Shown piece by piece: positions 60,287 through 61,650 of a stretch of 64,000 nucleotides of DNA (within the stretch, counting starts at the first letter, position 1; every line of letters begins with the position of its first letter). The notes beneath the pieces were generated by a model. The model made no database searches and was not told where the DNA came from. It saw only the letters and a list, made by a program, of their open reading frames with translations. This DNA comes from Echinicola vietnamensis DSM 17526. Its GTDB lineage: Bacteria; Bacteroidota; Bacteroidia; Cytophagales; Cyclobacteriaceae. Position numbers and translations under genes: made by a program. The stretch lies in assembly GCF_000325705.1 (NCBI RefSeq), contig NC_019904.1, positions 3,412,001-3,476,000 on the forward strand, read 5' to 3'.

Positions 60287-60322
60287 AGAGGCTCAGGAAC
60301 GGTTGATTCTTGGGCCTCTTTT
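60287..60322 (+). terminator. Intrinsic terminator after SusC/SusD operon
   Basis: AGAGGCTCAGGAA / TTCTTGGGCCTCT, 13-bp stem with two G-U pairs, then TTTTA. Confidence 0.8.
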
Positions 60323-60453
60323 ATTGGTGTCTGATTTTGGGTTGAATATTTGCTAAAATAGCACCTTTATTTTTGTTTAAAATTATTGATATAATTAATA
60401 ATGTGGTTTATTATTAAATTTAATGTAAAAATTTGCAAGAATTTTTAATATAA

Positions 60454-60484
60454 TTTGAATTAATATCTCTTGTTGTTAACTTTG
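60454..60484 (+). promoter_or_regulatory. Consensus Bacteroidota promoter of the tRNA-like gene
   Basis: TTTG (60454-60457), exactly 19 bases, TAACTTTG (60477-60484). Both boxes match TTTG-N19-TAnnTTTG without error, the best promoter in the window. Expected start near 60491, about 29 bases before the tRNA-like 5' end. Confidence 0.75.
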
Positions 60485-60519
60485 TTATATGAAGAAAAGA
60501 CAAAAGGTCTTTCAGATAC

Positions 60520-60643
60520 TGTAGGGTGATGAAATTGGCAGACATGCCCCCCTGTCTCGGGGGTGGGGAGCCTTGGATAAAGCAAACATGGAGCTCGTGT
60601 TTTGCCTAACTGCCCCGTGGAGGTTCGAGTCCTTCCCCTACAG
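60520..60643 (+). tRNA. Aberrant type II tRNA-like gene: Leu-like D arm, GUC anticodon triplet, 55-nt variable region
   Basis: Acceptor TGTAGGG (60520-60526) pairs perfectly with CCCTACA (60636-60642). The D arm ATG-AAATTGGCAGA-CAT (60529-60545) is the leucine form with G18G19. Anticodon stem CCCCC (60547-60551) / GGGGG (60559-60563) with loop CTGTCTC: U33 is present, anticodon GUC, and unusual U37. The T arm is GGAGG-TTCGAGT-CCTTC (60619-60635). Discriminator G 60643; CCA not encoded. The variable region 60564-60618 folds into one extended arm: GGGG/CCCC, AG/CT, TTGG/CTAA with a G-U pair, then GCAAACAT/GTGTTTTGC. Normal leucine tRNAs have variable arms of some 12-20 nt. It has its own promoter and terminator. 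Amino acid unknown; possibly not a translational tRNA. Confidence 0.75.
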
Positions 60644-60674
60644 CAGGTTATTTTGGGTTTATTGTTAATTGACT

Positions 60675-60707
60675 AAAGCTATGAGATTGTTTTCATAGCT
60701 TTTTTTT
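60675..60707 (+). terminator. Intrinsic terminator of the tRNA-like gene
   Basis: AAAGCTATGA-8 bases-TCATAGCTTT, a perfect 10-bp stem followed by more T, 31 bases after the tRNA-like 3' end. Confidence 0.88.
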
Positions 60708-61650
60708 GTTTTAGGGTAGAAGGAGATAATACGGTAAAGGTCGGGTCGGATCAAGTAGAAATGATAGCGGCTAGCCTATTTCGATGGCTATTCCGGACCA
60801 AGCCATATTTCTGGGGGGCGAATTTGACATGGTCTTACAAAAGAAAATTTCATACCGTTAAAACGATGGACTTCCTCCACAGGGCAAACGCCTTTAAAAA
60901 AAATGTTCCTATTTGCATTTATATCTGCCGTTCCTACGGATACTTTTTTGTGTAATCATTTTTGGTGCAGGTTGTCACCAGCACCCTCTGTATGCCCCTC
61001 CGCTTAGGCAGAATGCTCAGTTACTAGCGCATATTCAGGGTTTAACCTCAACCAAGCCAACCACTATACCTGAGCAGATAGCTGCGACGGCTTGTACGAT
61101 CCAAATCAACAACTCATTCTTTCAGCCTATTCCGCCATTCGGCACCATAGCCTACTGCGATTTCCCAGGTACAAATCGCGGCAAAGTGCCTGCGGCACGA
61201 TAAATTTTGTAACCTGCGGATTCATCCGCAGGAATTTAAGCGCTCCTCAACCTCCCGAAGGAGTGCCAGCGGCACGGATGATAACTCCTTTACACGAAAT
61301 TAGTACCAAAGGCGTTTGCCACACTTGAAAGCCATCAGGGAAATCGCTTTTAGCCCCTTGAAGTCCTTTAATTCAGGCTGACATCTCTTTACTAATAGTT
61401 TAAAAGTGTTTGTTCTGGGGGAACTGCTAATTTTCATTATGGTGTAAAATGCCCATAATTTTTACGCATGATCCAATCATAATGGCTTTGAGTCTTAGTA
61501 CTTTAATGACTTTTCATTGTTACGATAAATAGGGGAATTTATGGCCCACAGAATATTGATTGATTCTTGAGACTCGCTTTTTCTGTCCTAAACGAAAATA
61601 AATAATTATGATTTGTTATTTTTAGTTATTGAAAACAAAAGGAAATGATT
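60708..61650. other. Non-coding, repeat-rich region between the tRNA-like gene and the sulfatase
   Basis: 943 bases. Short open frames here translate repeats and show no family likeness. The middle 438 bases carry the REP-like cluster listed apart; 61321-61650 holds nothing I recognise. Confidence 0.5.
60883..61320. repeat. REP-like hairpin cluster framed by a 13-bp inverted repeat
   Basis: GGCAAACGCCTTT (60883-60895) and its exact inverse AAAGGCGTTTGCC (61308-61320) frame four GC-rich hairpins: CCGT-TCCT-ACGG (60928-60939), GTGCC-TGC-GGCAC (61186-61198), CCTGCGGAT-TC-ATCCGCAGG (61213-61232) and GTGCC-AGC-GGCAC (61263-61275). These look like the REP elements moved by RAYT transposases. A decayed or MITE-type element is possible. 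Confidence 0.5.

Follow-up and report, generated by a model that had tools for sequence, protein, structure and literature searches.

The window, the whole stretch of 64,000 nucleotides of Echinicola vietnamensis DSM 17526 DNA that was analysed, carries at 60520-60643 on the + strand a sequence that reads as the full cloverleaf of a tRNA-shaped RNA, with SusC/SusD-like genes on one side and a sulfatase-like gene on the other (neighbours judged by eye only). The RNA, its parts and the predicted signals around it are as follows:

60431..60463, +: candidate AsnC operator, AT-rich with partial dyads ATTTGCAA and TTTGAATTAAT, from sequence; relatives have TTRAAATATTTGYAA-like sites here
60455..60484, +: Bacteroidota-type promoter-like site read from sequence, TTG at 60455-60457, a 19-nt spacer and TAACTTTG at 60477-60484
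60495..60512, +: 5′ leader hairpin aaaagac-aaaa-ggtcttt with a boxA-like GGTCTTT, from leaders compared by eye
60520..60643, +: tRNA-shaped RNA, positions 1-73, from sequence, BLAST, alignment and a 223-member comparison
60520-60526/60636-60642, +: acceptor stem of 7 bp, UGUAGGG/CCCUACA, from sequence
60529..60545, +: leucine-type D arm AUG/CAU with loop AAAUUGGCAGA, from by-eye comparison with the genome's own tRNA-Leu genes
60547..60563, +: anticodon-like arm CCCCC-CUGUCUC-GGGGG, GUC at 60554-60556 and U37 at 60557
60564..60618, +: extended variable arm, 55 nt between the anticodon stem and the T stem, from covariation
60565-60568/60613-60616, +: outer helix of the variable arm, from covariation
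60573-60575/60610-60612, +: middle helix of the variable arm, the weakest, with 78% of cells paired
60576-60581/60606-60609, +: internal loop of the variable arm, GAUAAA/CUAA
60582-60590/60596-60605, +: inner stem of the variable arm, from covariation
60591..60596, +: variable-arm tip, a GAGCUC palindrome, from sequence
60619..60635, +: T arm GGAGG-UUCGAGU-CCUUC with T loop UUCGAGU, from sequence and alignment
60646..60673, +: 3′ trailer GGTTATTTTGGGTTTATTGTTAATTGAC, conserved within the genus, from comparison with relatives
60675..60710, +: predicted intrinsic terminator, a 12-bp stem (60675-60702) followed by a T tract; 1 found vs 0.3 expected

The cloverleaf, 55-nt arm, GUC triplet, U37 and G73 that an earlier note on this DNA had described were all confirmed from the sequence, as was its leucine-type D arm, and the junction of the variable arm proved to be leucine-type too. 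The acceptor and T stems stand in a 7/5 arrangement, and the encoded 3′ end consists of G73 at 60643 and C74 at 60644, the C75-A76 of the CCA being absent. Since the folding energy of the window copy alone is unremarkable (z = -0.53), the case for an RNA rests on covariation and conservation.

Both were found in the relatives, where the earlier note had named absence of the RNA, or decay of its stems, as counter-evidence. In a MAFFT alignment of 41 copies, with the helices drawn from the window copy, the helices pair in 94.7% of cells, and the compensatory changes that the note had proposed to look for in the arm helices are present: double-sided changes occur in 99 cells vs 32.5 (sd 7.1) in shuffles, at 14 of the 32 pairs. 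Sliding the partner strand leaves at most 30 double-sided changes, a control biased towards the unslid version by the use of the window copy to define the structure. The acceptor (7 pairs) and T (5 pairs) stems are paired in 100% of cells over the 41 sequences. The outer helix of the arm appears as GGGG/CCCC, GGAG/CUCC, GAGG/CCUC or GAAG/CUUC, and the short middle helix as CAG/CUG, CGG/CCG, GAG/CUC, CAC/GUG or AGC/GCU. Thus the relatives covary on the long arm, and a shorter fold with a normal anticodon and arm, which the note had allowed for, is unsupported.

Beyond these helices the family arm contains the internal loop NAYAAA/CUAA, and its inner stem varies greatly in length; many long-armed members share GGGUUGACCAC or GGGGUAGACCACC. 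A crude internal-loop pattern, AnAAA plus CTAA in the arm, occurs in 194 of 223 members and in just 12 of the 33 distinct phage members, several of which carry AAUAG/UGAA in its place by eye. The arm is not indispensable, because one 77-nt member (L126:3038-3114, -, in G048), read by ARAGORN as tRNA-Asp(atc), has no variable arm at all and in a phage member (L272) the arm is merely short. In several phage loci (L290, L283, L280, L277 and similar) the D loop contains an extra insertion, hairpin-like by eye, and the RNAs reach 172-174 nt. Perfect palindromes are frequent at the arm tip, and from phage to phage the palindrome is replaced as a unit (GCCGGCCGGC, GCTTGCAAGC, TCCTGCAGGA, TGCATGCA), the pattern expected of self-pairing. 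Palindromes of at least 8 nt occur in 82 of 222 arms vs 49.8 expected, and palindromes of only 2 nt in 22 vs 7.1 expected; the enrichment is mixed, and related sequences inflate the counts. Self-pairing or a dimer contact through the tip is speculation.

The gene was confirmed as belonging to a real, conserved Bacteroidota family that also occurs in some phages, as judged by sequence comparison at several scales. The earlier note had proposed a search of relatives for the long-armed RNA; BLAST with the window stretch gave matches, in some cases partial, in 47 of 59 genomes, a count that takes in the own genome and all 10 others of the same genus, and placed five copies in the E. vietnamensis genome itself. 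A covariance model built from the 41 copies scored these five at 137.7-145.8 bits, the next match, at 59.2 bits, being a tRNA-Leu(gag) by ARAGORN. Among 395 sampled Bacteroidota genomes, scanned with stricter filters under which weak matches may be lost, members at ≥67.8 bits were counted in 41 over the matches listed; the remaining listed matches score ≤61.9 bits and, at 84-89 nt, are as long as tRNA-Leu. Of the 359 genomes with a match at E ≤ 0.001, the majority show no scores above this level.

A pattern scan of named genomes returned at least 120 stretches, and within the 80 of them listed the model confirmed 102 members. The titles of those 80, with genera placed in the orders to which we take them to belong, name Cytophagales, Chitinophagales, Saprospirales and Sphingobacteriales taxa, two Flavobacteriales MAGs, one Ignavibacteriales MAG and unclassified Bacteroidetes; none names another phylum, and one carries no phylum. 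The genera include Cyclobacterium, Algoriphagus, Hymenobacter, Pontibacter, Dyadobacter, Spirosoma, Chitinophaga and Pedobacter. No match was found in plasmids. Altogether 223 distinct sequences of 79-213 nt were examined, phage members included. The RNA is thus conserved in many cultivated Bacteroidota genera, yet ARAGORN called zero tRNAs in the window, and Rfam 15, which has the tRNA model among its families, gave no hit there and no match at E ≤ 1 in a scan of 60300-60900; ARAGORN does call the two aberrant short members, L126 and L272, tRNA-Asp. No description of the RNA was found in the open literature, a coverage outside which most subscription papers and all preprints lie.

The gene also looks expressed, as the earlier note had it, with a promoter-like site and a terminator predicted on either side. 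Across 128 upstream regions, those of copies without another copy directly before them, TANNTTTG is present in 91 vs about 12 in mononucleotide shuffles, and a complete TTG-N17-21-TANNTTTG, which we take to be the Bacteroidota promoter consensus, in 50 vs about 1. Of the same 128 regions, 38 contain ATTTG[CT]AA vs 2.5 expected from mononucleotide shuffles; the candidate operator of the window copy matches the TTRAAATATTTGYAA-like pattern only loosely. The GGTCTTT of the leader presumably resembles boxA, and in several other lineages GTTCTTT precedes the RNA when leaders are compared by eye. A universal trailer motif was sought and rejected, the trailer sequences being lineage-specific only.

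An AsnC-type regulator is the recurrent partner of the RNA. Members of this protein family lie near it in 37 of 76 loci (some overlapping), divergently in every one; at one locus (L050) 1.6 kb separates the two. In the named genomes, partly the same organisms as the 76-locus set, 48 of 74 loci have asnC divergent from the RNA at a distance of 73-262 bp and 26 have none at its side; in a further 6 of the 80 loci the contig ends too soon to tell. No AsnC lies alongside the window copy or the other same-genus copies examined. Among 80 chosen genomes, an AsnC orthologue scoring ≥225 bits was found in 42 of 42 that bear the RNA vs 3 of 38 that lack it, with a next best score of 189.6; the AsnC model derives from proteins encoded next to the RNA, and most of the RNA-less genomes belong to other families, so that common descent accounts for part of this co-occurrence. 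PF13404 and PF01037 scored above their cut-offs in the two partner proteins scanned, and the best PDB match of one partner was the AsnC 2cg4, which we take to be that of E. coli. The NCBIfam AsnC model NF008384 gave 156-168 bits in four partner proteins, below its cut-off of 227; by these profile scores the partner is AsnC-like and not the same equivalog as NF008384. E. coli AsnC senses asparagine. We infer that the partner would bind the upstream TTRAAATATTTGYAA-like sites.

Some asnC genes stand beside what may be a remnant of the RNA gene. In the three RNA-less exceptions, G060, G179 and G414 (L314, L315 and L316), the asnC side retains by eye the trailer GGTTTATAATTGGTTAG, or one close to it, and the terminator, with the RNA body missing. 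At the genome's own asnC (3658956-3659429, -, in L325, G000:C1:3656500-3662000) a divergent trailer TTTGGGTTTAT and a terminator likewise stand without an RNA body, as they do at the asnC of G002 (L328). About 75 nt at L325 differ from L328 at two positions, and the sequence just upstream differs more, which is why a short RNA may still be made from the remnant. By model, no RNA was found beside the asnC of G000, G002, G048 or G122, nor beside weaker AsnC homologues (≤190 bits) of other families; at these weaker or RNA-less asnC loci ARAGORN called only a tRNA-Met, in L323.

Which positions of the RNA are held constant was read from the 223 members. G73 and C74 are present in all of them, G2:C71 in 223 and U1:A72 in 222. 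U35, C36, C38 and a pyrimidine at 37 are likewise found in 223 of 223; some of the members had been collected by a pattern in which positions 35-38 were fixed, and the 96 collected without it show the same constancy there. Position 33 is U in 185, G in 21, C in 10 and A in 7, so 38 members lack U33; position 34 is G in 206, A in 9, C in 5 and U in 3, so 17 lack G34.

It is very improbable that the copies are tRNA pseudogenes in decay or a mobile repeat that multiplied, an origin that the covariation already contradicts. The presence of more than one copy in a genome, tandem arrangement and scattered positions in the window's genus would suit such an origin; compensatory changes, the constancy of ends and loop, promoter-like sites, the terminator, AsnC linkage across families and the recurrence of the same RNA neighbours in several species of that genus speak against it.

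For comparison, ARAGORN read 34 ordinary tRNA sequences in the own genome, with odd Val-like genes left out. U33 is present in 33 of them, a purine at 37 and C74 in all 34, and their genes end in N73-C74, or in CCA in 4 of 34; C74 is therefore the local rule for tRNA 3′ ends. The RNA shares this encoded N73-C74 of mature-tRNA type, and it lacks the combination of U33 and purine 37 that goes with ordinary decoding. The odd position 37 to which the earlier note had drawn attention is thus a family trait. The excluded Val-like genes, at L307 (G000:C1:595700-596950) and neighbouring loci, have odd anticodon loops, lie near tRNA-Val(tac) copies and are labelled tRNA-?(SeC|Val)(ca) and tRNA-?(Stop|Ile)(ta) by ARAGORN.

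Ordinary codon reading by the RNA is unlikely on these comparisons, because its pyrimidine 37 and the losses of U33 and G34 among members contrast with the purine 37 of ordinary tRNAs; the own genome also has an ordinary tRNA-Asp(GUC). The earlier note had suggested a missense tRNA placing serine or leucine at Asp codons, and this idea is weakened by pyrimidine 37 in all 223 members and the 38 without U33; its two other suggestions, a regulatory tRNA mimic and a charging donor for a non-ribosomal use, may still hold. In its fuller form, an anticodon-blind synthetase would charge the RNA with serine (or another amino acid), and low-level reading of GAC/GAU would yield statistical proteins under AsnC control. 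G34 in 206 of 223 members, U33 in 185, an intact elbow, the serine-linked phage context and the retention of both U33 and G34 in all 33 distinct phage members fit decoding, and allo-tRNAs show serine placed at other codons (PMC7609411). Misreading of GA codons would affect most proteins, as we reason, and in the 17 members with A, C or U at position 34, C or U would read Glu codons, not Asp. We consider the missense reading improbable.

The same loop can be viewed as an identity set rather than a decoding device. An aspartyl-accepting mimic, loaded by AspRS through G73, G34-U35-C36 and C38 for a non-ribosomal use, would draw on the known AspRS identity set, which comprises these very nucleotides. 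G73, U35, C36 and C38 occur in all 223 members and G34 in 206, and an AsnC partner would fit the sensing of Asp/Asn status. The replacement of G34 by A, C or U in 17 members, A or U at position 10 in the 41 aligned copies (G in some other lineages) and phage neighbours that are tRNA-Ser and SerRS, not Asp, count against this mimic. The genome likewise offers no extra AspRS-type gene: an additional synthetase was looked for and rejected, one SerRS scoring above the cut-off beside three class IIb genes. Asp loading is accordingly a doubtful account of the family, of the same low probability as missense reading.

The neighbours in question come from 37 IMG/VR contigs (5-326 kb) that carry members at 74.7-119.6 bits; in reference phages there was a single match, for one of two queries, in the 636-kb LR756504.1. 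By ARAGORN, 26 of the 37 phage stretches contain at least three tRNA or tmRNA genes, some a nearly full tRNA set with tmRNA, and tmRNA adjoins the RNA in two stretches and shares the stretch in others. In 29 stretches a tRNA lies no more than 400 nt upstream, and the nearest one is tRNA-Ser in 24 of them (14 tga and 10 gct, 15 separated from the RNA by 4 nt); of all 294 RNAs counted in the phage stretches, 40 are tRNA-Ser. These counts are non-independent owing to shared ancestry and near-duplicate contigs. In a 183-kb phage a complete gene for seryl-tRNA synthetase (419.8 bits) lies directly before the RNA, with 3 nt between its stop and the RNA start, and no SerRS scored above the cut-off in the other 36 phage records, many of which are fragments. 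Around chromosomal copies, the stretches scanned contain neither SerRS nor tRNA-Ser. One phage protein (L279:7086-7913, -), matching only a class IIb (D/K/N) synthetase core, lies near a GlnII-like glutamine synthetase and the RNA. Presence in phage tRNA arrays suggests a connection with the translation apparatus, and among amino acids the phage neighbours (tRNA-Ser and one SerRS) favour serine over leucine; as evidence of serine charging, this context and the constant G73 are indirect.

The comparisons display a conserved, tRNA-ended RNA with a promoter-like site, a predicted terminator and a link to one regulator. The AsnC partner, the five copies, the carriage by phages and the lineages that keep trailer and terminator without the RNA body go beyond what the earlier note had described. 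We propose tentatively, and hold as possible rather than probable for the chain as a whole, that this is an RNA of tRNA descent under AsnC control, which may be charged with serine and has a function other than codon reading. In response to an amino acid that it senses, AsnC would control the divergent RNA promoter; RNase P would trim the leader and the CCA enzyme complete the 3′ end; and seryl-tRNA synthetase would accept the mature RNA on account of its G73 end and long arm. With position 37 a pyrimidine and U33 and G34 dispensable in its Y-N-N-U-C-Y-C loop, the RNA would read no codons and serve, charged or uncharged, as a tRNA mimic tuning translation or amino-acid use to supply. AsnC control, CCA completion and serine charging are inferences that have moderate support. 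The leucine-type D arm and V-arm junction speak against the serine reading, as does L126, whose lack of a V arm is unexpected for a SerRS substrate, and the survival of RNA-less lineages speaks against a universal need.

The main rival, ahead of Asp charging and missense decoding, is an uncharged structural or regulatory RNA, for which tRNA-spacer sponges offer a comparison. The cloverleaf would then be no more than a stable scaffold, with base pairing or protein binding done by the U35-C36-Y37-C38 loop, by the internal loop of the V arm or by the 3′ trailer. A loop strongly conserved outside codon logic, an internal loop NAYAAA/CUAA that is kept as the tip varies, and the persistence of trailer and terminator without the RNA body in G060, G179, G414, G000 and G002 are consistent with it. 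The perfect acceptor stem of the 41 copies and the G73 and C74 of all 223 members, which imply selection for a tRNA-type 3′ end, and the carriage by phages within or beside tRNA arrays argue the other way, and we rate the uncharged alternative as rather unlikely.

Extended further, the proposal of a serine-linked, non-decoding RNA leads to one more kind of stable RNA tied to translation, next to tRNA and tmRNA. Such a tRNA mimic would carry serine or sense serine status, would never read codons, would have its own AsnC control, might pair with itself through the palindromic arm tip and would be needed enough for large phages to bring copies. We think this extension unlikely as a whole. The conserved RNA itself would represent an offshoot of tRNA that has a dedicated regulator, would show that phage RNA kits contain more than tRNAs and tmRNA, and would offer a first place to test the role of the RNA-linked AsnC protein in the phylum. 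If the RNA carries serine without decoding, the question becomes where the serine goes.

Several known systems resemble the RNA in part. The YrlA and other bacterial Y RNAs are non-coding RNAs that mimic tRNA, whereas the RNA here has a full cloverleaf with an anticodon arm; assignment to YrlA was rejected, with no Rfam match and no TROVE (Ro) protein in the genome. A long arm is shared with tRNA-Sec, which is charged by SerRS, and with selC* tRNA-Cys, but the acceptor domain is not extended and there is no UCA anticodon. Like tmRNA, which it adjoins or accompanies in phage stretches, it would be part of an RNA kit for translation; unlike tmRNA, it has full D and anticodon arms and is a separate gene in which no tag reading frame was seen. 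In its D arm, V-arm junction (GU at 47-48 in 126 of 167 parsed members) and elbow it resembles tRNA-Leu, the probable parent fold, from which it differs by G73 instead of A73, the 55-nt arm of the window copy, pyrimidine 37 and U1:A72. Closest are the allo-tRNAs, which PMC7609411 describes as 8/4 and 9/3 molecules of Clostridia, Proteobacteria and Acidobacteria, and with which it shares the tRNA shape, a long variable arm, a non-cognate-looking anticodon (GUC being among their common ones) and a probable serine link. The RNA differs in its occurrence in Bacteroidota and phages, its pyrimidine 37, its AsnC partner and a usually much longer, structured arm; its 7/5 geometry, neither 8/4 nor 9/3, excludes membership, and allo-tRNAs are its nearest known kind all the same.
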